Source: Pontiella desulfatans (GTDB taxonomy: Bacteria; Verrucomicrobiota; Kiritimatiellia; Kiritimatiellales; Pontiellaceae). Taken from it: DNA of 64,000 bases. Both the position numbers and the translations under genes were made by a program. Of this stretch, positions 20,896 to 47,027 are shown piece after piece. The notes beneath the pieces were generated by a model. The model had not been told where the DNA came from. It worked only from the letters and a program-made list of their open reading frames with translations, and did no database searches. The stretch is taken from positions 3,658,001 to 3,722,000 of the forward strand of contig NZ_CAAHFG010000001.1 in NCBI RefSeq assembly GCF_900890425.1. Direction: 5' to 3'. Within the stretch, counting starts at the first letter, position 1. Every line of letters starts with the position of its first letter.

Positions 20896-22069
20896 TTGAG
20901 GTTTCTTATTTTGGAGAAGGCAGACGGTAGTTCCTGGTTTTTGCAGGTGGTTTTCATTCTTGTTTCGCGGTTTTTCATGCCGCGGTACGACGCGCGTCTT
21001 CAGATATTGAAGTACCAGATCCAAATGCTTTGTGATCGGATTGATGACCCTCGACTCATTACGAAGGAAGAGGAGCGGGCGGAGTTGATGCGGTTGGGGG
21101 CATTGATCGACCATGACATCTCCGATGTCATGTTGGTTGTGAAACCAAAGACCTACCGTGGCTGGCTTCGGAAAAAGGCGGGCAAGAAACCTAAGCGAAA
21201 AGGCGGACGTCCGGAAACGGATGAGGGAATCATCCAATTGATTATTAGACTCGCCACCGAAAACCTTGGATGGGGATATAAGCGAATCTTTGGAGAACTG
21301 AACATTACGGCTTGCGAAGCAAACGGAAAGCAAACCTATGGTTTGTCCCGAAGGGATGCCACTGCGAAGCAGGGCACAACTTGGGCATTAAGATCGGCCT
21401 GACAACAATCCGCGACATTATGAAACGCAACGGCCTCAACCCGGTTCCGGATAAGGCTATGAAGAACCCGGACAGCACATAGTCGAAATTCATCAAATCC
21501 CATATTGAAACGCTCGTCGCGATCGACTTTTTCTCCAAGCCGGTTTACACGTTCAAGGGAAAAATCGATGCCTACGTACTTGTGTTTATCCACCTGGGAA
21601 GTCGGAAGGTTTTCATGAGCCTCCCGACTATTCATCCATGTGATGAGTGGGTTCTTCAGCAGGCTCGTAATGCCACCATGTGGTTGGACGATATCGGCGT
21701 TAAGGCGACCGGATTGATTCGTGATCGCGACACAAAATTTACGACACGTTTCGATGTCATTTGGAAAAGCGAAGGTGCGAAAGTCCATAAGACTCCGGTG
21801 CGCTCGCCTATGGCAAATTCTTTCGCAGAATGCTATATTGGTAAAATTAAATCTGAATATTTGAATCTCTTTTATTGCTTTAGCCTGGATCATCTTGATT
21901 ACATTAATCGAGAATGGTTGAAGTACTACCACAACCAACGTCCTCATCAGGGAATTGACATTAATAACAACGTTCTTGATGTTGATTTCAAACCGACCGA
22001 TCAGGGCGAAGTCAAACGGGAACAACGACTCGCGGAGTCATTTCGTGGTACTACCGCGACGCTGCGTAG
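20896..22069 (+). pseudogene. integrase-core (rve) transposase, broken
   Basis: The protein can be followed across three lesions. A helix-turn-helix-like N-terminal part (KTYRGWLRKKAGKKPKRKGG ... GWGYKRIFGELN) is interrupted by a 74-bp hairpin insertion at 21304-21377 that shifts the frame. The reading then resumes as LGIKIGLTTIRDIMKRNGL and hits a TAG at 21480, where a Trp is expected (ST-stop-SKF). The catalytic core retains the D, D and E residues (VAIDFFSK, LIRDRDTKF, SFAECYIGKIKSEYL) and YYHNQRPHQG. A one-base deletion near 22033 moves the canonical WYYRDAA end out of frame. An initiator is plausible at 20896 or, more typically for the family, at MPRYDARL (20977). The enzyme would have cut and joined the element's ends; it is now inactive. 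Confidence 0.85.
21304..21377. repeat. 74-bp hairpin-cluster insertion inside a transposase gene
   Basis: Relative to the expected GELN-LGIKIG peptide, 74 bp are extra here, with AAC on both sides (possible 3-bp duplication). The insert consists almost wholly of short stems closed by 3-nt loops: TTGC-GAA-GCAA, CAAACC-TAT-GGTTTG, TCCC-GAA-GGGA and CTGC-GAA-GCAG. The architecture recalls the array at 2271-2377. The length is not a multiple of three, so it frameshifts the gene. Confidence 0.75.
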
Positions 22070-24290
22070 TTCCCTGAACACAATCATTAGAAAAAGTCCC
22101 CTCCCCGTTCAGACTGAACGGAGGATTCACCGTGCCTTGATTGCGTAAATTTGACTGTTTTACCGACTTTCATCTACTTGATTTACTACCTTCGCCTCTC
22201 CAACCGATATAATTTTAGGTCAAAACCAATCGATTCTAACTGATTTCATTACTCAAAACCGCTGTGACTAATTTCCGGACAGGTCACTTTCATACTATAA
22301 TCACCATCGACCTCATCAAGGAACAGACATCGGAAACAAAGTCCTGGATGCAAATTTCAGACCTACTTCTTCCGGCGAAGTTAAACGCGAAGAACGACTC
22401 GGCGGCATAATCTCTTGGTATTACCGAGAAGCCGCTTAGTTCCACGTTCCTCATCATTAGCAAGACTCCCCTTTCCGTTCTGACTGAACGGAAAGTTCAA
22501 CGCGCCCTGACTCCGTAAATTTGATTATTTTTCCAACTTTCATCCGTAGACTTTACTATTTTTCGGTCATTCACCGATTCAATTCTTGCTCCAAACTACT
22601 TCATTTCATCCGATCTCATTGCTCTAACTTGCTGTGACTAATATTCAGACAGTGCATTCGTAGTCCTACCATTGCCAACATCAAAACCCACCTCCCCATT
22701 CAAACTGAACGGTTGTTTTCGTGCGCCTTGATTTCAGCGATTTTTCTTTCTGGTTTCCCATCGTTTCGTGTTGCTAACTTTTCCGTTCCGTTTCCCAGAT
22801 TTTCAGCTCAATATCGCTCGTTTCGCATCTGTTTTTATTATCGATTTTAGTGCGATACTTTTCCGCACCCATCATAATTTCCGAACAGGTCAGCCATAGT
22901 TAATCCGATCCTCAAACATGCGTTCGCGATACCAAGGGTCATTTGACTCTTTCAGCCAGCGGCCCAGTTCACCAAGGATAAAGTCCGCATCGGCTTGGGG
23001 AATGTCCGCAACGGCGAGCGAGTTCATTTGATACGGATCCTTTTCATTGTCGAAAAGTAACTGCTCTCCTGCATCATCGATCTGGAACGTATAACGATCA
23101 GTGCGTACGCCTTTAAACTTGTTGTTGTAGCCGAGAAACAGAGCCGATTTTGGTTTGGGCTGTGTCGACCAGACGCCCGTAATGATTTCGTGCGAATAGT
23201 TTTTCCCCTCCACCGTTTCGGGAATCCGGCTCTTCAGCCCCATCATACCGAGCATCGTCGGCATGATATCAACCGGTCCTAACATCAGATCCTCTAGCCG
23301 GTGTTTTGTGAGACCCGGATATTTAATCATGAAAGGCACACAGAACGACTCTTCATAAATGACCAGCTTGCCGAACTTATTATGGCTACCCATCATTTCG
23401 CCGTGATCGGCTGTGAACACCACAATCGTATTGTCGGCCTCACCAGAGGCTTCCAGCGCTTGAAGAACTCGGCCGAACTGTTTATCCACACCTGTGACAT
23501 TGGCCAAATAGAACGGCATACTTTTTTTTGCTCTGGCGAGATTCTCTGCATCCGACTCAGCAATATTCGGACGGTTCAGCAACTCGTCCGAAGAATTGTC
23601 TTTATAGTGCTCACGATAGGCCATCTCATCGCAATCCTTCTCGGAGCCGTACGGGCTATGCGGCGGATTGGGTGCCCAGATCGCGCAGAATGGTTTTGAG
23701 GTGTCGCGTTTGCCCTTTGTATTTTTAAGGTAGTCAATCAGCACATCGGCTTCGAGCAACGGAGAATAGATTTTAGGGCGATGCTGCTCGCCATCCTTCT
23801 TCCCATCGATGCGCAACGGATCGTTGGAATAGACGCGAGGATCCTTATGCACATCTTTCACACAGGTGAACCAATAATCGTTGCCATGTCGTCCGCGCCC
23901 TGGCGGAATGTAGGTATCATATGGATTAAACCGATTTCCGCCCGGAGCGGAGGTCGAGCCAACATAGTTCTCGTTAATATCAAACAGCGCATCATTGCGC
24001 TCCCAATGGGTCTTGCCCACATAGGCTGTTTCATAACCCGCCGAACAAAGCACATCCGTGAAGCATTGGATGTCGTGCCGCAAACTGTCCTGCCGGGTCT
24101 CGTGGCAGTTATTAACGACTCCATTTTGCCAGGGATACATGCCCGACATCAGCATGGCGCGGTATGGACTGCAGACCGGGCATGTGCTTACGGCTTGCGT
24201 AAAGACAATGCTCTCTTCGGCCAGCTTATCGAGTGCAGGGGTAACGACCGGATCGGTCTTGGTGCGCAGGACATTCTTATATTTATCCTT

Positions 24291-25304
24291 TAGGGGTATT
24301 CACTTCGATGGACTAGACCCACATGTTGTGGTACACACGTTTCATGGAAGCGTATCCAAAGGATCTGGAAGAATTGGAACTGAACTTTTCAAGTGAAGAA
24401 GCATGTCGCGACTATCTTGCATCATTGCGATGGCCGAACGGCTTCCTTTGCCCGGCCTGTGGCCATGGGGAGTCGTGGCGACTGTCAGACGGCCTTTTCA
24501 AGTGCAAGACGTGCAGTCGTTAAACATCTGTAACCTCGGGTACGATCTTTGAGGGCACCCGCAAACCGCTGGCGTCCTGGTTCAGGGCGATCTGGTGGGT
24601 GACAAGCCAGAAGAACGGAGCCAGCGCCTTGGGACTGATGCGCGTTCTCGGCCTCGGAAGCTACAAGACCGCATGGACGTGGCTGCACAAGCTCCGCCGG
24701 GCGATGGTACGTCCGGGACGGGAAAGACTGGCCGGAACCGTGCAGGTGGATGAAACCTTCATAGGCGGCACAAGGCCCGGGAAACGGGGGCGCGGAGCCG
24801 AAGGCAAGACCCTTGTGCTGATCGTGGCGCAGGAGAATGGTAAGGCCGTCGGTCGCATTCGCCTTGTAAAAATACCCGATGCCTCATCCAAAAGCCTTGA
24901 AGGGGCCATCCGAGAAACGGTTGATCCGGGTACGCAGGTGAAGACGGACGGGTGGAAGGGGTACAATGGTTTGGGAGCTTTGGGCTACGACCATAAAGTC
25001 GTTCGGAAATCCGAGGATGTTGGCGCGAACCTGCTCCCCCTTTGCCATCGAGTCGCCAGTTTGCTTAAGCGGTGGCTTGGCGGAACACATCAGGGCGCAG
25101 TAAGTCACGAGCATTTGGCATACTATCTCGACGAATACACGTTCCGCTTCAACCGGCGCACTTCCCGCTCGCGGGGAATGCTGCTTTACCGTCTGCTACA
25201 AAATGCAGTCGCTATGGAACCCGTTCGGTTCAAGGAAATATCCCTGTCGGTCAGGGGAAGAAACCACAAGATACAGACTTAGTCCAGCGAAGTGAATACC
25301 CCTA
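24291..25304 (+). mobile_element. IS1595-type insertion sequence, 1014 bp
   Basis: Terminal inverted repeats: TAGGGGTATTCACTTCG at 24291, continuing with one mismatch to TGGACTA, and the inverse ending at 25304. Flanked by a perfect 8-bp target duplication TTATCCTT (24283-24290 and 25305-25312), the length known for the IS1595 family. Contains one transposase gene with a single nonsense codon. It is inserted in the 5' part of a sulfatase gene, in the opposite orientation. The intact ends and duplication argue for a fairly recent insertion. Confidence 0.93.
24323..25282 (+). pseudogene. IS1595-family transposase with one in-frame stop
   Basis: An N-terminal zinc ribbon (CPACGHGESW ... CKTC) is followed by TSVTSGTIFEGTRKPL, the catalytic VDETFIGG, VKTDGWKGYNGL, and the terminal HEHLAYYLDEYTFRFNRR of the ISXO2-like/IS1595 family. 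A TAA at 24521-24523 interrupts the frame between CSR and TSVT. CAA (Gln) is usual there in relatives, so this is a single C-to-T change. Both halves are otherwise in the same frame and undamaged. The element may be immobile unless the stop is read through or the protein is supplied by another copy. Confidence 0.88.
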
Positions 25305-25494
25305 TTATCCTTTTGCCAGAACCCCATCGCCTCGCGACGCATTTGGTCGGGAAAGACAAAGAGCAGGTTGGGCTGTTTTGTTTTTTTTGCAGCATGTGTG
25401 CTGTTTCCCAACATGGCCAAACCAACACCAACGGTTTTTAAATAATCACGACGTTCCATAACCATTCCTTATTATTATACAATTACCAAATACG

Positions 25495-27375
25495 TTAAAA
25501 CCAATCGGGACGATCGGCGGGACCGGGACGCGGCGGACCAACGCGATTTAACTCCTTGTCGAAGTGTTTTCCAACAGGGATTTTTATCAGCTTATCCAAA
25601 TCTTCGAACAACCACTCGTGCGAAGTTTTATGCTGGATGATTCTACCGCGTTCATCGGTAAGGGTAACCAGAAAGCCTCCATATTTTGTTCCGCGCAAGG
25701 GAGCAGAAGCACGCACGGCAACTTGCCCGATCCGCACTTCTTCACCTGAGAAAGAATGGGTTTCCTTGTTTTCGGGCGATGGTACAAACGAACTGGCCTG
25801 GTGATCCACCAGCTTATAGTTATCGCCATCTACCTCCTCGGCAAAGGCATAATAATCGACGGACAGTTCGTACTTGTAAACGCTTGTACCTTTTTTCCGA
25901 ACACTTGCTTCAAAGATAAAATCGAACATCTGATAAGGTCGTTCCCCAGCGTTAAGTGGAGATTGTGCGGGAGGCATGACCTGTTCGGTTGTCTTGGAAA
26001 ATTTAATATCAAAGTCGGGCGGGTCGGCGAGACCGATAAAGGTTCGGTCCTCCGAAGAAAGCTGCTCCACCGGCACTTTCACCTGCTTGCCTTTTGAATT
26101 ACTGAGCAATGCCTGCCCGGCAACACGCGCCACAAACTTACCCTCAATGGTTTTTCCGGAGGAACTCGTCCAGATGCGCATTCCGTTATTGGATTCCGAA
26201 ACCTCTTCCAGTTCCGGCTCCAAAGGCGATGAACCAGCGGCGCTGTTCGCTACTTGCTTTGGTGCATAATCACGAAAAACCGGACCGTTTGTGACGGTTG
26301 CATCTCCGGGGTAGAGGTCGCTATGGATTTTGTCCACAAGATCCTCCGAAAGCGTTTCCGTTTTAAAGATCGGCAATGTTGGCCCGTTAAGCATGTCATT
26401 CCGTGGATACTCCACCCCCTCGACTTCGACACAGAGCATGGCCTGAAACAGCCCTCCGGGAGTCTCACCAATCAACACTTCCATCGGAAGTGCTTCTCCG
26501 GCCTTTAGCTCAATCCAGTCGCCGACCACGGAATAGTGATCGCCCAGCCAATACTTCCGGGAATCATTGTCGTTGCTGTCCCAGATCGATGTAAATATTT
26601 GTGCATCTTCACTTGGATAGTTGGCGATGAGCACCTCTTTTCCATCCACCCGAATAGCCATGATGTCGTCGCCCAAGCCCCAGAACCGGAACTTGATATC
26701 TTCATAATGAACCAGTTGCCCCTTGTAGTGCGCTGCCCAGAGATAGCCGATCGTGTCCTCTTCACCAAACGCAGCCGGGGCCAATGAAGAATGAACCGGA
26801 GGAACTGCAAACGCGGTGGCGTAGAGCTTTCGGGGAGAGCGGTAGTAACGGGCAAGCTGAGACGTTTTCCACCCTTTGCGAATAAACTCCTTGAGTTCCT
26901 GAACAAAACCCTCGCGACCCGTTGGAACAGGACTCCCCCGGCGATCGCGCTTGAAATCATAAAAGGTGCCTTTGAAGTCATTGCCGATGGTTTGACCGCC
27001 GCCGAACAACGTGACCTGTTCGAGATCCGGTATGATTTCAAACCCGCCAATGCCGCCGACGATCCCATCTGTCATGCCGCTCATTTCCGGCAATTGAATA
27101 TCGGGCATGCTGGCACGTTTTACCTTGGTGACAATTCGCGTCGTCGACTTGGGTTTCGCGGTTTTCTTAACTTTCACCTTCGGTTTCTTGAGCTTCATTT
27201 TTGGCCGCTCAACCGGCTTCGGTGGAACAAATTTTTTCTCCTCCTTCTGATGAACCGTGAAAACCACCAACATGCCGGCCAGCAAGAAGGCGGCGGCATG
27301 AACCATCAGGCTGATCACAAAACCGCTTGGCGCACCCTTGACCACTCCCTTTGTCTTTTTGATCAATCTTTTCAT
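25495..27375 (-). CDS. TonB-like membrane-anchored PA14/SHD1 protein
   Basis: 626 aa. An N-terminal cytoplasmic stretch (MKRLIKKTKG) precedes one membrane segment (about 19-40, FVISLMVHAAAFLLAGMLVVF) and a Pro/Lys-rich linker (FVPPKPVERPKMKLKKPKVK) like that of TonB or ExbD-coupled proteins. No TonB C-terminal domain follows. Instead there is a PA14-like domain (about 175-300; YLWAAHYKGQLVHYED, FRFWGLGDDIMAIRVDG). Then comes an SHD1 domain (about 405-455; RIWTSSSGKTIEGKFVA, KVPVEQLSSEDRTFI), and then a beta-rich tail ending in a Pro-rich stretch. It is presumably anchored in the inner membrane with the rest in the periplasm; a structural or sensing role in glycan handling is inferred. It carries the 22-bp-spaced operator in its promoter and is followed by the split Tat sulfatase. 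Confidence 0.8.
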   Translation of the reverse strand: MKRLIKKTKGVVKGAPSGFVISLMVHAAAFLLAGMLVVFTVHQKEEKKFVPPKPVERPKMKLKKPKVKVKKTAKPKSTTRIVTKVKRASMPDIQLPEMSGMTDGIVGGIGGFEIIPDLEQVTLFGGGQTIGNDFKGTFYDFKRDRRGSPVPTGREGFVQELKEFIRKGWKTSQLARYYRSPRKLYATAFAVPPVHSSLAPAAFGEEDTIGYLWAAHYKGQLVHYEDIKFRFWGLGDDIMAIRVDGKEVLIANYPSEDAQIFTSIWDSNDNDSRKYWLGDHYSVVGDWIELKAGEALPMEVLIGETPGGLFQAMLCVEVEGVEYPRNDMLNGPTLPIFKTETLSEDLVDKIHSDLYPGDATVTNGPVFRDYAPKQVANSAAGSSPLEPELEEVSESNNGMRIWTSSSGKTIEGKFVARVAGQALLSNSKGKQVKVPVEQLSSEDRTFIGLADPPDFDIKFSKTTEQVMPPAQSPLNAGERPYQMFDFIFEASVRKKGTSVYKYELSVDYYAFAEEVDGDNYKLVDHQASSFVPSPENKETHSFSGEEVRIGQVAVRASAPLRGTKYGGFLVTLTDERGRIIQHKTSHEWLFEDLDKLIKIPVGKHFDKELNRVGPPRPGPADRPDWF

Positions 27376-27447
27376 CGGTTAAATCCCTTCACATACGTGA
27401 CTAGGGTATAATCTTTGCACAGCATAAAAACATGCCCTCGGGTGGTT

Positions 27448-27823
27448 TCATCTGATGTAACAATAATCCAAACGGGTTAAAATGACACTGATATATTGCG
27501 CAATCCAGACCGATGATTTGCGTAACCGAAGGGTCTCATTTAATTGGAATTCGACAAACAGGCTATGGAGCCAGCTTAACGTCACCTTGTAGAAACCTGC
27601 ACTTTCAGCAACGTGCGTTGTGTCGGTATAGCTGGTTTGCGGAGACCGTATGCCGCTTTGCAGATTGGTGAATAAATCGGCCAACGTCCCCACAGTGCCA
27701 GATGCCACACGAACGATTTGAGACGGTATTCCAGAAATTAACAAAGCCGGCAGAATCCATGCTATTGATTGCGGCATAAAACGCCTCCGAATGAAGGGGT
27801 CGTATCCCACAATGGAACGTCAT
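27448..27823 (-). pseudogene. relic of a secreted protein: C-terminal module only
   Basis: Two overlapping frames together give the recurring C-terminal module. One frame reads FWNTVSNRSCGIWHCGDVG and the other, after a frameshift, GTLADLFTNLQSGIRSPQT followed by SYTDTTH and GFYKVTL. The same pattern ends the protein relic at 55971-56407 (WNAVSNREYGVWQTGTLTNS, then PQNSYTDTTH and GFYRVRL). Nothing remains of the main body. The relic lies downstream of the DUF1961 gene. Confidence 0.7.
27460..27525 (-). promoter_or_regulatory. operator/promoter A (TonB-like operon)
   Basis: Minus-strand order: half-site TTACGCAA (27525-27518), half-site TTGCGCAA (27503-27496) with starts 22 bp apart, -35 region TGTCAT 16 bp after the second half-site start, then a 16-bp spacer and -10 TATTGT (27465-27460). 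The start codon of the TonB-like gene is 85 bp further. Geometry matches the other sites of the set. Confidence 0.7.
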
Positions 27824-28602
27824 TTTTTGGTGTATATTTTGATATTTTTATAGCAACTACTTCGCGCCCACATATGGCGGAAGCCGATTCGGCCTTCGGT
27901 GACCGGCGGAAAGGAAGAGCAATCCCAGTCGAACGAATGAATTTTCCCATCGCGTTCTGCGGAGAAAACCAACCGTCTCCCCTCTTTCACTGCGGTGATA
28001 TGGCAGGTCTCACTCGGCTGGAACAGATCGATGTTTTCATAGATGGGCTGGATCTGGGTTTCCTTCTGGAAATGCGTTAAATCCGCCGCTGGATATCGGC
28101 GTGCCGCGACATAGTGCGAGCGCTTCGGCCCGGTGGTGGAATAGGAAATATGCAACGTATTCATGTTTAGAAAATAAGATTTCATCCACGGCACTTCGCG
28201 TTGCTGAGTCGACTTAAAAATATCGTTTGGCAGTTCCTCAGCACCCAACCCCGTCGCTTGGACATAGAGAATGTTAACCGCCGTTTCATTGGTCATCGAA
28301 TCAAGTCGGGTGTAATCGTATTCAATTTTGATATCACCCGAAAAACTTTGCTTCGTCCACAACACGGCGTGGCTCGCTTGCTCCAACGGCACCGGGCCCG
28401 AAGAAAAGGTCATCCCCGTTTCGCCATTCACTACGCTAGCCTTAGCGCCTTCAAGAAACCAACCTTCCTGCCATTTCTCAGAACCGGAATCGCTAAACGC
28501 GAGTTTCCATTCGGAGGAAGCTGATGAGGCACAACCGGACAACAACAGCACTGTCAGAATACTAATTCCAGCCAGTTTCCATTTTACATCGTGAACGAAC
28601 AT
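27820..28602 (-). CDS. DUF1961-like lipoprotein
   Basis: 260 aa. A lipoprotein signal with lipobox SGCASS (Cys24) is followed by a single domain of concanavalin-like type: HAVLWTKQSFSGDIKIEYDYTR, LNMNTLHISYSTTG, HFQKETQIQPIYENIDLFQP, IGFRHMWARSS. These blocks match what I know of DUF1961 proteins, which occur beside polysaccharide lyases and sulfatases; their activity is not settled here. Outer- or inner-membrane anchored. The start is supported by AGGA eight bases upstream. It begins 9 bp after the stop of the sulfatase gene, so it is the last complete gene of the operon headed by the sulfatase at 34195. Confidence 0.75.
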   Translation of the reverse strand: MFVHDVKWKLAGISILTVLLLSGCASSASSEWKLAFSDSGSEKWQEGWFLEGAKASVVNGETGMTFSSGPVPLEQASHAVLWTKQSFSGDIKIEYDYTRLDSMTNETAVNILYVQATGLGAEELPNDIFKSTQQREVPWMKSYFLNMNTLHISYSTTGPKRSHYVAARRYPAADLTHFQKETQIQPIYENIDLFQPSETCHITAVKEGRRLVFSAERDGKIHSFDWDCSSFPPVTEGRIGFRHMWARSSCYKNIKIYTKK

Positions 28603-28611
28603 AGCAGCATC

Positions 28612-30054
28612 CTATTTTTGAACTTCAGGAGATTTTCCGGTAAAATAATCGTTGCAGCGCAGATAGGTATGCTGCGACCAAGGTGTATTTATCTTCGGGA
28701 GCGATTTAGCCAACTCCTTTTTAATTTCCTCGTACTCCAAATTATCTGCAAGATTCTTCCACTCATTGGGATCCTTCAGGCAATCATATAGTTCCTCGCT
28801 GCCATCCTCATAGCGGATATAACGATAGCGCTGCGACCGCACGGCGTGGTTGTTTTCGCCATAGGTGGTTATGGCATTGTGATTCCATTTTGCCTTCGGA
28901 TCACGCATCAGGGGAACCAGACTAACCCCCTCGTTCTTTGGATTTGCCGGTAGGCCGCACAACTCCAGCAACGTAGGATATAGATCCATCAGCGAAGCAG
29001 GCCCATCCGTCGATTGTCCGCCCTTAAATTCAGGCGCCGTAAAGATCATTGGCATACGGGTCGCCCGTTCCCAAAGCGACTGTTTGGCAAACCGGTTCTT
29101 TTCGCCCAAATGATAGCCGTGGTCCGACCAGAGCACGACCACCGTATTTTCCGCATACCCGCTGCGCTCCAATTCATCGAGCACCATGCCCACGCAATGA
29201 TCAACCATCGACACGGTGGCAAGGTAAGCCTGAACAATGTGCTTCCACTCCCCACTTTCTTTTGCCCAGTCCGCCGTTGGCATATGTAGCATCTCGGCAA
29301 TTTTACGAGCCATTGGAGGTACATCGTCCTGATCGCCCTTCAGATAGGGCGGTGTTTCTATTTCTTCAAGGGGGTGCAAATCGAACCATTTCTGCGGCGC
29401 ATACCACGGTACATGCGGCAGCACAAAACCAACCGCCATAAAAAAGGGTTCATCATGCTTTTGTTTCAAACGTTCAACCGCCCATTCTGCCGTTTTAAAG
29501 TCCGGCAGGTCTTCATCGCGTTCGGGATAAACACCCCAGTCCGTGCCTGTTCCTATTGTATCCCACGTAAAGCGCTTCTCCGGCTTGGGCCCAAAACGTG
29601 GTGCCTCGCGTGTGCCATCAAATTCCTGAAAGGCTCCTTCCGGCGCCCAGTGGTGGAAGATCTTACCTTTACCCATGGTTTTATAACCGTTGTTTTCAAA
29701 CCAGTTGCTCAGATAAATGCCTTGTCCCGCCGGAGTCTTCTCCAAGTCCTCATCAAAAACATGTGCGTATATTCCGGTCGTCGATGGACGCAATCCACTC
29801 ATCAGTGCCGTGCGCGACGGCCCGCAATGCGGCGCTGCCGTATGGGCATTCATGAATATAGTACCCTGAGCGGCCAAGCGATCCATGTGAGGGGTTTTTG
29901 TATTCGGATGCCCGTCCATGAACCCGACCCAATCATTCAAATCATCAATCGCAATCATTAATACATTGGGTTTTGAATTCACTTTCATGGACGATCCCGC
30001 CCAAGCGGGGATTGCCAATAAACCAACACAACTAATCAATCCAATATAGTTCAT
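28612..30054 (-). CDS. secreted iduronate-2-sulfatase-like sulfatase
   Basis: 480 aa from the third of three consecutive ATGs, the only one with proper spacing (6 bp) from AAGGA. Signal peptide MNYIGLISCVGLLAIPAWA. NVLMIAIDDLNDW, HMDRLAAQG and the active-site C77 in CGPSR, then TALMSG, fit the iduronate-2-sulfatase-type subfamily; WSDHGYHLGEKNRFAKQSLWE is also typical of it. The subfamily includes enzymes removing 2-O-sulfate from uronic acids, but other specificities exist. It lies in the operon between a gene relic and the DUF1961 lipoprotein. Confidence 0.9.
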   Translation of the reverse strand: MNYIGLISCVGLLAIPAWAGSSMKVNSKPNVLMIAIDDLNDWVGFMDGHPNTKTPHMDRLAAQGTIFMNAHTAAPHCGPSRTALMSGLRPSTTGIYAHVFDEDLEKTPAGQGIYLSNWFENNGYKTMGKGKIFHHWAPEGAFQEFDGTREAPRFGPKPEKRFTWDTIGTGTDWGVYPERDEDLPDFKTAEWAVERLKQKHDEPFFMAVGFVLPHVPWYAPQKWFDLHPLEEIETPPYLKGDQDDVPPMARKIAEMLHMPTADWAKESGEWKHIVQAYLATVSMVDHCVGMVLDELERSGYAENTVVVLWSDHGYHLGEKNRFAKQSLWERATRMPMIFTAPEFKGGQSTDGPASLMDLYPTLLELCGLPANPKNEGVSLVPLMRDPKAKWNHNAITTYGENNHAVRSQRYRYIRYEDGSEELYDCLKDPNEWKNLADNLEYEEIKKELAKSLPKINTPWSQHTYLRCNDYFTGKSPEVQK

Positions 30055-30077
30055 CATCATTCCTTAGTTGCCCTATT

Positions 30078-30559: not shown

Positions 30560-32329
30560 CTAGCTCTCTGCTTTGATTTTCTTTCGGTAAATGGAGAGCA
30601 GGATTCCGCCGACGCCAGCCACCGCACCCCCACAATAGATAAAGACCATCCGTTCGCTGAAGCTGTTGGGAATAAGGAAGCCGCACATCAGCAAACTGCC
30701 CAGAATCAGGTTGAGCGATCCCACAATATGGTACTGGGTGGCATCGCTGTTTTCAGAGTGCTCTGCCACATGGTCGATCGGGGTGCGCATGTCCGAGAAC
30801 AGCGCTTCGATCGATTCCTTGTGCTCGGGCGTTACACGCTTGTAGAACAACGACGTAAAGAAGAACCAGGAAATGCTGCAAACCAGCGTGACCGCCGTAA
30901 TCACCATGAAGGTAACGTCCCCGCTTTCGAGGGAGTTCATTGGGCGGTCGCCAAATCCAAATACATATTTTCCGGCGGCATCGGTCGAGACATAGGTCTT
31001 GGTGAGAAAGGCTGCGGCGAAGCCAACAATGACCGTACTCCACCCGGTCCAGACCGGGGTCTTTTTGTAGACGAAGCCAAATACGGCCGGCACCACCATC
31101 GGCGGGATGACCAACGAGAAGACCAGGTTGGAAAATTCGAACAGCCCGATCGTGCGGTTATTCGCCAGCGTGGTTGCAAGGGTGATCAGTACGACTGCAA
31201 GAATAACGGTGAAGACGCGTCCCATCAGCAATTGCTCCTTTTCATCGGCATCCGGACGGATAAATTCCTTATAGAAGTTCTTCACACAGAATCCGGCATT
31301 GCGGTTCAAGGCGGTATCCATGCTCGAGATCGATGCCGCGAACATGGCACAGACAATCAGCCCCACCATGCCGCGCGGCAAGACGTGCGCGGCAATGGCC
31401 ATATAGGCCCCCTCGGTCGGGTTTTCCATCTTCGGGAAAAGCTCCGACAGATCCGGATAAACAAACGAACACACCATCACCGGAACAAATGCAATGATCG
31501 GCACAAGAAAGTATCCACACGTAAGCATGGCTGCCGATTTCCTGGCCTCGCGCCCGTCCTTGACGGAAAGAAACTTGGCTCCTTCCTGCGAAAGATCGGA
31601 GGCCTGCATGATGCGCATGACCATGCTCAGCAGGAGAAACGCGATCCAGATACTGGGCGATTCCACCGACGAAAAATTGGTAAAACCTTCCGGAATCTGT
31701 TCCATGAATCCATCAACGCCACCGACCGACGGCAAGGTGATGGACCGAATCAGCACCGTCGTTGCACCGACAATGATAATGGTCATCTGAACAAAGTCGG
31801 AGGCAATAACCGACCAGGCGCCCGCGCCGAGAGAAACGCAGGTTACTACAATCCCGAGAATCAGAATGCACAGGTTAAGCGGCACGCCGACCGCCGCGCT
31901 CATGAAGATGGAAACGGTCATCAGCCACATCGCGCCAATCATCATGTTGGCCGGAATCTGAACCCAGATCCAGAACTGCTCGGTAAAGCGGCCGTAGCGT
32001 CGCTTGATTCCATCGGCCACGGTGATGATGCGCATCTGGCGGTAGCGATTGGCCAGAAAGAAAAAGATAATCAAATAGGCCGGCACCCACAGCCAATAGA
32101 GAACGATCATGAAAAACCCCATATCGTAAACCCGGGTCGCCGCCGCCGTGAAGGTCCAGGCCGACAGCCCCGAAGCAAGGCCCGACATACCCGTCATCCA
32201 CCACAGCATATTGCCGCCGCCGCGGAAAAAGTCGGACGAGTTTTTGGCCACCTTGCGGCACACCATTCCGATCGACATCGTAAATAGCAGATACAGTGCG
32301 ATAACGAGATAATCCCAATTTCCTAACAT
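30560..32329 (-). CDS. sodium:solute symporter (SSS family)
   Basis: 589 aa with about 13-14 hydrophobic segments. The start at 32329 is chosen from AAGGAAG eight bases upstream. Family blocks: GNWDYLVIALYLLFTMSIG, SSDFFRGGGNMLWWMTGMS, LASGLSAWTF, VWVQIPANM-type segments, SLGAGAWSVIASDFVQ, and MFAASISSMDTALNRNAGF, which matches the second sodium-site helix. SSS transporters import sugars, sialic acid or other solutes with Na+. In this operon the likely cargo is an (unsaturated) uronic acid or amino sugar released outside the cytoplasm; this is inferred from neighbours. Confidence 0.93.
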   Translation of the reverse strand: MLGNWDYLVIALYLLFTMSIGMVCRKVAKNSSDFFRGGGNMLWWMTGMSGLASGLSAWTFTAAATRVYDMGFFMIVLYWLWVPAYLIIFFFLANRYRQMRIITVADGIKRRYGRFTEQFWIWVQIPANMMIGAMWLMTVSIFMSAAVGVPLNLCILILGIVVTCVSLGAGAWSVIASDFVQMTIIIVGATTVLIRSITLPSVGGVDGFMEQIPEGFTNFSSVESPSIWIAFLLLSMVMRIMQASDLSQEGAKFLSVKDGREARKSAAMLTCGYFLVPIIAFVPVMVCSFVYPDLSELFPKMENPTEGAYMAIAAHVLPRGMVGLIVCAMFAASISSMDTALNRNAGFCVKNFYKEFIRPDADEKEQLLMGRVFTVILAVVLITLATTLANNRTIGLFEFSNLVFSLVIPPMVVPAVFGFVYKKTPVWTGWSTVIVGFAAAFLTKTYVSTDAAGKYVFGFGDRPMNSLESGDVTFMVITAVTLVCSISWFFFTSLFYKRVTPEHKESIEALFSDMRTPIDHVAEHSENSDATQYHIVGSLNLILGSLLMCGFLIPNSFSERMVFIYCGGAVAGVGGILLSIYRKKIKAES

Positions 32330-32359
32330 AATGAGCACTTCCTTTTTATACATTAAAAA

Positions 32360-45866: not shown

Positions 45867-47027
45867 ATGGCAAAACGGAAAAAAGTGGCCCTGCGGTTTT
45901 CTCTGACGTCAGGTTTTACGCGCAAGATGGTGCACGGAGTTATTGCCTACATGCGCAAGCATGGGTCGTGGGATATTGATATCCGAAGTGCTGAACCGAT
46001 CGCCCTGTCGACCTGGGAAGATCTACGATCCTGGGAGGGCGACGGCATCATTGCCCCGGTCTATCAGAAAGCCCATATTGCAATGCTTAAGAAAAGGGGC
46101 GTACCGGTGATTAACACTGCCGCCGCACTCGAAAACATCCCCTTCCCGACGATCACCTTTGACAATGAGGCCATCGGCGAAATGGCGGCCAACCATCTCC
46201 TCGAACACAATCTGGATCACTTTGCCTATATCGGCCCCAAAGACTGGGCCTACAGTATTCTGCGGTGTAACAGCTTTACTCAGACGCTCGCCAAACAGAA
46301 TGCACCCTGTACGAAATGCTGGATTCTTCCGGCGTCCTCTACCGAACAGCTTGATACCAACTGGGTTGAATCCAGCTATTACCTTGCTGCACTCCAACAA
46401 CTGCAGCCACCGGTCGGCCTGCTGGCCTCCAACGACCGGGTGGCCTACGGCATTCTCCAGGCCTGCGATAAACTGGGACTGCGGGTGCCCGAAGACATTT
46501 GCCTGATCAGTGTGGATAATGATGAAATTCTCTGCAATCTGGCCCATCCCAATATTTCCAGCATTTCCATGTGTGGTGAAGAATTCGGATATCAGGCCGC
46601 AGCCATGCTCGACACCCTGATGCAGGGCAGGCCGCTCGAAAGCAATCACGTCAAGATCCTGCCGGAACGAGTGGTGCTGCGCAACTCGTCGGATTTTCTT
46701 ACCGTTGATGATCGCTATGTCGCCGACGCACTGCGGTATATCCGCAACCATGCTTCCCGTTTCATCGATGTTTCCGATGTTATGAGCGTAATGCCCATTT
46801 CCCGGCGTTCACTGGAGCGGCGGTTTCAGGATATTGTAGGGCACGGCGTCTATAAGGAAATCAGCCGTTGTCATGTCGAGCGGGCAAAAGAACTGTTGGA
46901 ACAAACGGATTGGCCGGTCTCCCGCATCGCAAAAGAATCGGGATTCAACAGCACCAACCGATTCGAAGATACCTTCCGCAAAGAAACCGGCTTGTCCGCA
47001 ACTGGCTTTCGTAAAAAGATCTCGTAA
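45867..47027 (+). CDS. XylR-type transcriptional regulator (sugar-sensor plus AraC HTH)
   Basis: 386 aa, AAGGAG upstream. The N-terminal two-thirds is a LacI-like periplasmic-binding fold (VALRFSLTSGFTRKMVHGVI, PTITFDNEAIGEMAANHLLE, GLLASNDRVAYGILQACDKL, RVPEDICLISVDNDEI). The C-terminal 100 residues are an AraC double helix-turn-helix (YIRNHASRFIDVSDVMSVMP, ISRRSLERRFQ, WPVSRIAKESGFNSTNRFED). E. coli XylR has the same architecture and activates from tandem direct repeats next to -35. The window's repeated TTGCGCAA sites have exactly this character. This gene lies centrally among them, so it is the best candidate for their binding protein. Confidence 0.9.
   Translation: MAKRKKVALRFSLTSGFTRKMVHGVIAYMRKHGSWDIDIRSAEPIALSTWEDLRSWEGDGIIAPVYQKAHIAMLKKRGVPVINTAAALENIPFPTITFDNEAIGEMAANHLLEHNLDHFAYIGPKDWAYSILRCNSFTQTLAKQNAPCTKCWILPASSTEQLDTNWVESSYYLAALQQLQPPVGLLASNDRVAYGILQACDKLGLRVPEDICLISVDNDEILCNLAHPNISSISMCGEEFGYQAAAMLDTLMQGRPLESNHVKILPERVVLRNSSDFLTVDDRYVADALRYIRNHASRFIDVSDVMSVMPISRRSLERRFQDIVGHGVYKEISRCHVERAKELLEQTDWPVSRIAKESGFNSTNRFEDTFRKETGLSATGFRKKIS

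Follow-up and report, generated by a model that had tools for sequence, protein, structure and literature searches.

The window, i.e. the whole stretch of 64,000 nucleotides of the Pontiella desulfatans genome that was analysed, carries a gene for a predicted membrane-anchored protein in which a helix and a Lys/Pro-rich linker precede a PA14-like domain, an SHD1 domain and a beta-rich tail (Table 1). The genes upstream on this strand code for a DUF1961 protein, for a sulfatase and for a sodium:solute symporter. The sequence-only reading had the gene followed by a Tat sulfatase. A sulfatase gene which we take to be Tat-type from its RRDYL start is indeed located downstream, but it is split by an ISXO2/IS1595-type element. 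The same reading had put the gene under a locus operator. For this, searches for direct repeats, near-palindromes and common 16-mers yielded no convincing evidence: no near-palindrome or common 16-mer convincingly linked the upstream region to the other genes, and an exact second copy of the palindrome-like site at 27389-27400 is absent from the window. What is left of an insertion element of the integrase type (rve_3) lies at positions 20896-22148, and a XylR-like regulator with Peripla_BP_3 and AraC HTH domains, a candidate sensor of the glycan locus, is encoded at 45867-47027.

Table 1. Coordinates of the anchor-PA14-SHD1-tail gene, of its parts and of neighbouring genes (positions in the window).
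Feature	Position	Strand	Basis
Anchor-PA14-SHD1-tail protein, whole gene, 626 aa	25495..27375	-	ORF; 52 rows in alignment A2
Membrane helix, residues 17-36	27268..27327	-	AlphaFold2 model
Ser22-xxx-His26 of the TonB/TolA motor-binding motif	27298..27312	-	Alignment A2
Lys/Pro-rich linker, residues 42-118	27022..27252	-	Composition, identity, model; 77-118 predicted disordered
PA14-like domain, residues 120-375	26251..27018	-	VIA-align Z 11.4 to 6m8m
Asp236-Asp237, position of the PA14 Ca-binding DcisD pair	26665..26670	-	Sequence alignment
SHD1 domain, residues 397-452	26020..26187	-	Pfam, structure and sequence matches
C-terminal beta-rich tail, residues 454-597	25585..26016	-	AlphaFold2 model
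DUF1961 protein, upstream neighbour	27820..28602	-	
Sulfatase, upstream	28612..30060	-	
Sodium:solute symporter, upstream	30560..32353	-	PF00474
Tat-type sulfatase, 5' part, broken by insertion	25196..25465	-	
ISXO2/IS1595-type transposase gene between the sulfatase parts	24599..25282	+	PF12762, E 6.6e-31
Broken sulfatase, remaining part	22890..24155	-	PF00884 from profile position 55

SusC/SusD had been noted to be missing from this segment, which holds true: SusD had no match in the whole genome, and of four TonB-dependent receptor barrels encoded there none lies in the window. At the same time, at least 150 sulfatase matches were found (the number scored of 555 candidates). Such an inventory raises the question of how these bacteria take up large algal glycans.

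Structure prediction recovered the domain plan that had been proposed from the letters alone. An AlphaFold2 model based on 52 sequences (mean pLDDT 83, pTM 0.73) contains a single N-terminal helix at residues 17-36, a low-confidence linker which is poorest at residues 77-118, and two confident blocks at about residues 120-375 and 398-600, with PA14 and SHD1 folds and a beta-rich tail. About 16 residues precede the helix, and a cytoplasmic domain is absent from the model. The sole Pfam match of the protein was SHD1 (residues 397-447, E 1.4e-5, 25.3 bits compared to a cut-off of 23.7), and an NCBIfam scan assigned no family. Neither TonB_C (PF03544) nor a TolA C-terminal domain was among the Pfam matches; the two TonB_C matches of the genome are located at other sites. 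TonB proper was therefore rejected for this protein.

The PA14-like block aligned with the PA14 structure 6m8m (Z 11.4, rmsd 3.2, 162 residues aligned, 15% identity), and its top structural matches were PA14 domains with Z-scores of 10-11.4, which assigns the predicted model to this fold. By sequence, Pfam PA14 was not called in the window protein, and a paralogue scored E 0.0011, below the Pfam cut-off. A passage of PMC8092209 describes the DcisD Asp pair as the Ca-binding site of PA14 domains. Judged by sequence, the window protein carries both Asp residues. Of the 43 PA14 rows, 42 have the first Asp and 26 the complete pair; the second is missing in 17, and therefore sugar binding may not be general. 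The PA14 lectins of RTX adhesins (MpPA14, MhPA14) share the fold (Z 10.4-11.4) and the Asp-Asp Ca site, although identity to them is merely 10-15%. In contrast to these, the PA14 domain of the window protein is predicted to be periplasmic and membrane-anchored and is not part of a surface adhesin.

An anti-sigma-factor structure (6qe7, Z 10.5) also appeared among the structural matches, and response regulators, as read from sequence starts, are found close to some copies of the gene. Both would fit a glycan sensor that signals binding across the membrane in the manner of anti-sigma factors with PA14-like domains. This explanation is highly improbable, because only the short segment before the helix is available on the cytoplasmic side and homologues are located in motor operons; a sensor with a cytoplasmic domain was rejected, as the model contains no such domain.

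Residues 397-452 matched the structure of Sla1 homology domain 1 (2hbp; Z 8.7, rmsd 1.5, 56 residues). In a sequence search of solved structures SHD1 was matched with E 2e-5, and two other matches with E 0.45 and 0.62 were taken as chance. PF03983 above the cut-off together with the fold makes this domain a member of the SHD1 family. Yeast Sla1 is cytoplasmic, whereas the SHD1 domain of the window protein, alike in sequence and fold, is predicted to be periplasmic and joined to the beta tail. In the SHD1 literature we found only a remark concerning secreted bacterial proteins, in a passage of PMC5906684. The tail itself had no family match, and the structure search hardly probed it. In relatives and paralogues, SHD1 and tail occur together as a unit in proteins of their own, and at several loci a separate SHD1-tail protein, with a start resembling a signal peptide by eye, is encoded behind the PA14 gene. 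Separate there and fused in the window protein, PA14 and SHD1-tail may act jointly, as this arrangement suggests. Genes that overlap may be overlooked by the ORF calling used; next to the split copies L093 and L094, the SHD1-tail ORFs are L013 and L011 (L, G and C denote loci, genomes and contigs).

TonB and TolA dock on their motors via the SHLS motif, Ser-3X-His-6X-Leu-3X-Ser, according to PMC12905483. The corresponding positions of the window helix are Ser22, His26, Ala33 and Val37. Alignment A2 has 43 PA14 rows that carry an anchor; Ser, His and Ala are present in all of them and Val in 42. Paralogues with a vWA-like domain show the same positions, with Ser in 34 of 36 rows (2 Thr) and His, Ala and Val in 36 each. 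Since the Leu and the second Ser of the motif are replaced, we filed the window protein as one that works like SHLS-type force transducers, yet not as a canonical member.

The linker is rich in Lys and Pro as had been claimed, with 19 Lys/Arg and 9 Pro among its 77 residues. In 27 fused proteins it is the segment of highest mean pairwise identity (80%, length 76-79), followed by helix (76%), PA14 (50%), SHD1 (43%), tail (38%) and the PA14-SHD1 joint (16%). The vWA set gave 54% for the linker and 27% for the vWA part. Thus, the linker is no plain spacer, neither in the window protein nor throughout its relatives; it is the PA14-SHD1 joint that behaves like a real spacer. These values also bear on the idea of a plain tether, in which the anchor merely holds a periplasmic PA14/SHD1 binding protein and the TonB-like features are inherited, with energy use lost. 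The incomplete SHLS motif, the lack of a motor beside the window copy and the mostly scattered location of the copies are in line with such a tether. A disused linker should drift, however, and linker identity exceeded PA14 identity in 344 of 351 pairs, a figure that gene conversion among copies could raise within the genus and less so across families, and, when the window protein was compared with 14 motor-adjacent homologues, in 13 cases, once by a single point. Motor and payload furthermore co-occur across genomes (see below), and we regard the tether as unlikely.

ExbB and ExbD are not encoded in the window and hence not beside the gene. Their presence near homologues in relatives had been proposed as a check, and it turned out positive: for one type of motor, a PA14 homologue directly follows ExbB-ExbD-ExbD at 13 of the 35 loci read. 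These operons usually start with a TPR protein (~1000 aa) and a secreted-looking protein (~280 aa), followed by ExbB, ExbD, ExbD and the transducer; of these, Pfam confirmed the TPR, ExbB and ExbD parts at L125. In the first 24 ExbB-ExbD-ExbD loci (20 of relatives, 4 of the own genome) a PA14 transducer was directly behind the motor in 4 cases and a vWA transducer in 9; these proportions are no census because the loci were picked partly for a nearby anchor match or ExbD pair. In the ExbB tree the PA14-linked motors form one clade (100/97), which includes four motor-only loci, L034 of the own genome among them.

The 35 loci of this PA14-type motor comprise 27 loci plus L034, L111, L119, L122, L124, L125, L126 and L128, and include an ExbB of 61% identity (L246), partial ExbBs (L128, L254) and several motors at contig ends. 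Apart from the 13 PA14 cases, the motor is directly followed by a cut anchor once (L243) and by no anchor at 20 loci, some of them at contig ends; in the remaining case (G037, L129/L235) a vWA gene is located behind the motor and PA14 and SHD1-tail genes upstream. Five of the 13 belong to the genus of the window genome (L228, L229, L230, L231, L241). Fused proteins of the window type were found behind the motor at L228, L231 and L241 (genus) and at L111 (family), with 611-616 aa and 47-54% identity to the window protein. Motor-adjacent homologues share 33-62% identity with it over the aligned part, and the distance between transducer and preceding ExbD ranges from a small overlap up to 14 bases. 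The motif His is conserved in all 14 motor-adjacent homologues compared, and the Ser position is occupied by Ser in 12, Thr in one and Gly in one (L228). Three motors of the PA14 type, L248, L249 and L250, have one or two additional ExbD genes behind the usual pair.

The own-genome motor L034 maps to C1:4.280-4.282 Mb, ~0.6 Mb from the window gene, and has no anchor gene adjoining. An Asp at the start of the PLID/PMID helix of ExbD acts as proton carrier (PMC12204202), and it is present in all six printed ExbD copies of L034, L228 and L231. Docking of the window protein to the L034-type motor in trans is likely.

Co-occurrence was analyzed in the two nearest families, with 35 genomes that were at least 80% complete. 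Among the matches listed, ExbB of the PA14 type (at least 65% identity) was present in 24 of 25 PA14-positive and in 1 of 10 PA14-negative genomes, or in 2 of 10 if the 61% match in G039 is counted (Fisher 1.4e-6 and 1.6e-5, respectively, shared ancestry ignored). Of the PA14-negative genomes, only G026 clearly departs from this pattern, and it has the cut anchor behind its motor (L243). Conversely, G015 encodes a PA14 protein and showed no PA14-type motor among the matches listed. The idea that the protein belongs to envelope energisation is therefore supported by the motors of the relatives and by a linker that is more than a plain spacer.

The anchor is not confined to this gene. In the own genome of 8.66 Mb the window protein had 39 matches, and 26 strong anchor copies (E 1e-44 or better) and six weaker matches were recorded. 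As judged by context, PA14 is the payload of 9 of the strong anchors and a vWA-like domain that of 17, one of the latter being a broken remnant. The model of the vWA-like payload (pLDDT 78) matched vWA and integrin I domain structures; the window protein has no C-terminal vWA domain but the PA14 fold instead. Anchors were found in at least 40 of 58 genomes searched and PA14 proteins in at least 33 of 146. The 57 named loci belong to the Kiritimatiellales/Pontiellaceae throughout, except one labelled Verrucomicrobia UBA5540. A TonB-like start arising by chance was rejected in view of the 26 strong copies and the matches in at least 40 of 58 genomes.

In the PA14 tree, the motor-linked proteins of the other family (L125, L126, L128) are placed outside a group (99/97) of 34 copies that belong to the family of the window genome, and L111 groups with L093, an orphan copy of the window genome. 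The anchor-only tree (79 rows, with few columns and some long branches) takes three changes of the payload label; its well-supported branches force two, and a single change was allowed by no bootstrap tree. Six PA14 proteins bear an anchor of the vWA type in this tree. More than one payload change, together with two motor branches that match the two payloads, suggests a modular make-up of periplasmic force transducers, with a like anchor and linker bearing at least two unrelated payloads.

The vWA proteins of PVC bacteria have been predicted to be motor-driven force transducers of unknown function, and an operon of TPR, tolQ-like, two tolR-like and transducer genes was described from Tichowtungia (PMC12204202, Mol Biol Evol 2025). 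The vWA paralogues of the genome studied here fit this class. The window protein shares with it the membrane helix with the motor-docking His, a disordered Pro-rich linker, a globular C-terminal domain and, in relatives, the operon order. It differs by PA14, SHD1 and beta tail in place of vWA, by a motor branch of its own, by many orphan copies in glycan loci and by an SHD1-tail that can be a separate protein. No transducers of the PA14 type were found in the literature searched, and the main text of PMC12204202 does not contain the term PA14. Hence, the transducer class had already been predicted, and the present analysis adds to it PA14/SHD1 as a payload, a separate branch of motors, the exchange of payloads and the spread of copies into glycan loci. 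Compared to TonB, one N-terminal helix with Ser-3X-His, a Lys/Pro linker and, in relatives, the link to ExbB/ExbD are common features, whereas TonB_C is lacking, the linked motor has two ExbD genes and the window encodes no TonB-dependent receptor.

Among 70 same-strand neighbours of PA14 copies in the own and related genomes (of 89; the 19 omitted were mostly very long or short), Pfam identified 11 sulfatases, 3 fucosidases and 3 symporters, and GH88, GH95, GH115 and rhamnosidases also occurred. Sulfatase density was 0.89 per region at 27 anchor regions of the own genome and 0.15 at 20 control regions set at round-number positions; this difference is weak (Mann-Whitney p 0.03), and the sulfatase HMM is biased, being built from four sulfatases of the window, itself one of the 27 regions.

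A role in envelope stabilisation of the Tol type also has to be considered. Here, PA14 and SHD1 would bind the cell's own exopolymer or peptidoglycan-linked or outer-membrane parts, the motor would serve to hold the envelope together, and the position in glycan loci would be incidental. With TolA the window protein shares the plan of a motor-docked transducer spanning the periplasm; by contrast, no TolA C-terminal domain was reported, and the gene lies outside L035, which we take to be a Tol-like cluster from its gene order. The existence of this distinct cluster argues against such a role, as do the sulfatases and GH enzymes that adjoin the copies. In the 16 kb read at the split copies L093 and L094, however, no sulfatases are among the neighbouring genes, many relatives have SHD1-tail as a protein of its own, and the genus is reported in a passage of PMC7356697 to produce sulfated exopolymers. 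Overall, an envelope stabiliser is unlikely.

Taken together, the window protein probably is a periplasmic force transducer tethered to the inner membrane that is of the TonB/TolA working type, with PA14, SHD1 and tail replacing the TonB domain. It is best read as the PA14-payload version of the motor-driven periplasmic transducers, spread into loci for sulfated glycans. We infer, with good support, that it is coupled to a motor. By means of Ser-xxx-His, its helix would dock on a dedicated proton motor made of ExbB-ExbD-ExbD, at the edge of the latter, and the conserved 77-residue linker would cross the periplasm and pass the motor movement to the payload. PA14 would then grip a glycan or a glycan-bearing partner of the envelope, possibly in a Ca-dependent manner, and SHD1 and tail would contribute protein contact. 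The remote L034 motor may be common to several transducer copies in different sulfated-glycan loci, and the work done may be the holding, pulling or admitting of glycan. That the protein holds or passes glycans we infer from the PA14 fold, the first Asp of the Ca site and the neighbourhood of sulfatases and GH enzymes. Several observations count against a simple transducer story, namely the incomplete SHLS motif, the gaps at the second Asp, genome G015, the 20 motors without an adjoining transducer, the window locus without ExbB/ExbD, the L034 motor without an anchor gene and L228 without the Ser.

A wider reading is tentative and on balance doubtful. In the Kiritimatiellales, vWA and PA14 arms might each have a specialised ExbB-ExbD-ExbD motor, and these two motors might drive a distributed system of about 25 interchangeable periplasmic arms that are encoded singly at separate loci, of which many serve sulfated glycans. 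The PA14 arms themselves might grip and move glycan, by a powered route replacing import of the SusC/SusD type. Motor-linked arms with a fold of the sugar-binding type that are repeated in glycan loci, together with a named candidate motor, constitute a concrete and testable set of genes.

Some further loci of the anchor family deserve mention. L032:2996-4498 (G000:C4), located behind ExbB-ExbD-ExbD, codes for a protein of 500 aa that combines a Ser-xxx-His helix and a Glu-rich linker with a third type of payload, a squalene-hopene-cyclase-like domain (PF13243, E 1.8e-13). The broken remnant at L026/L007 (G000:C1:1375660-1377503) consists of a vWA-type anchor with a stop followed by PA14-SHD1 remains, as if two adjoining genes had collapsed. 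Transducer genes of both the vWA and the PA14 type are close together in one locus at L134, L135, L136 and L138, which suggests that they act jointly. The PA14-SHD1 copies L090 (G000:C1:1327355) and L092 (C3:1158164), located on different contigs, encode proteins identical over most of their length and represent a recent duplication.
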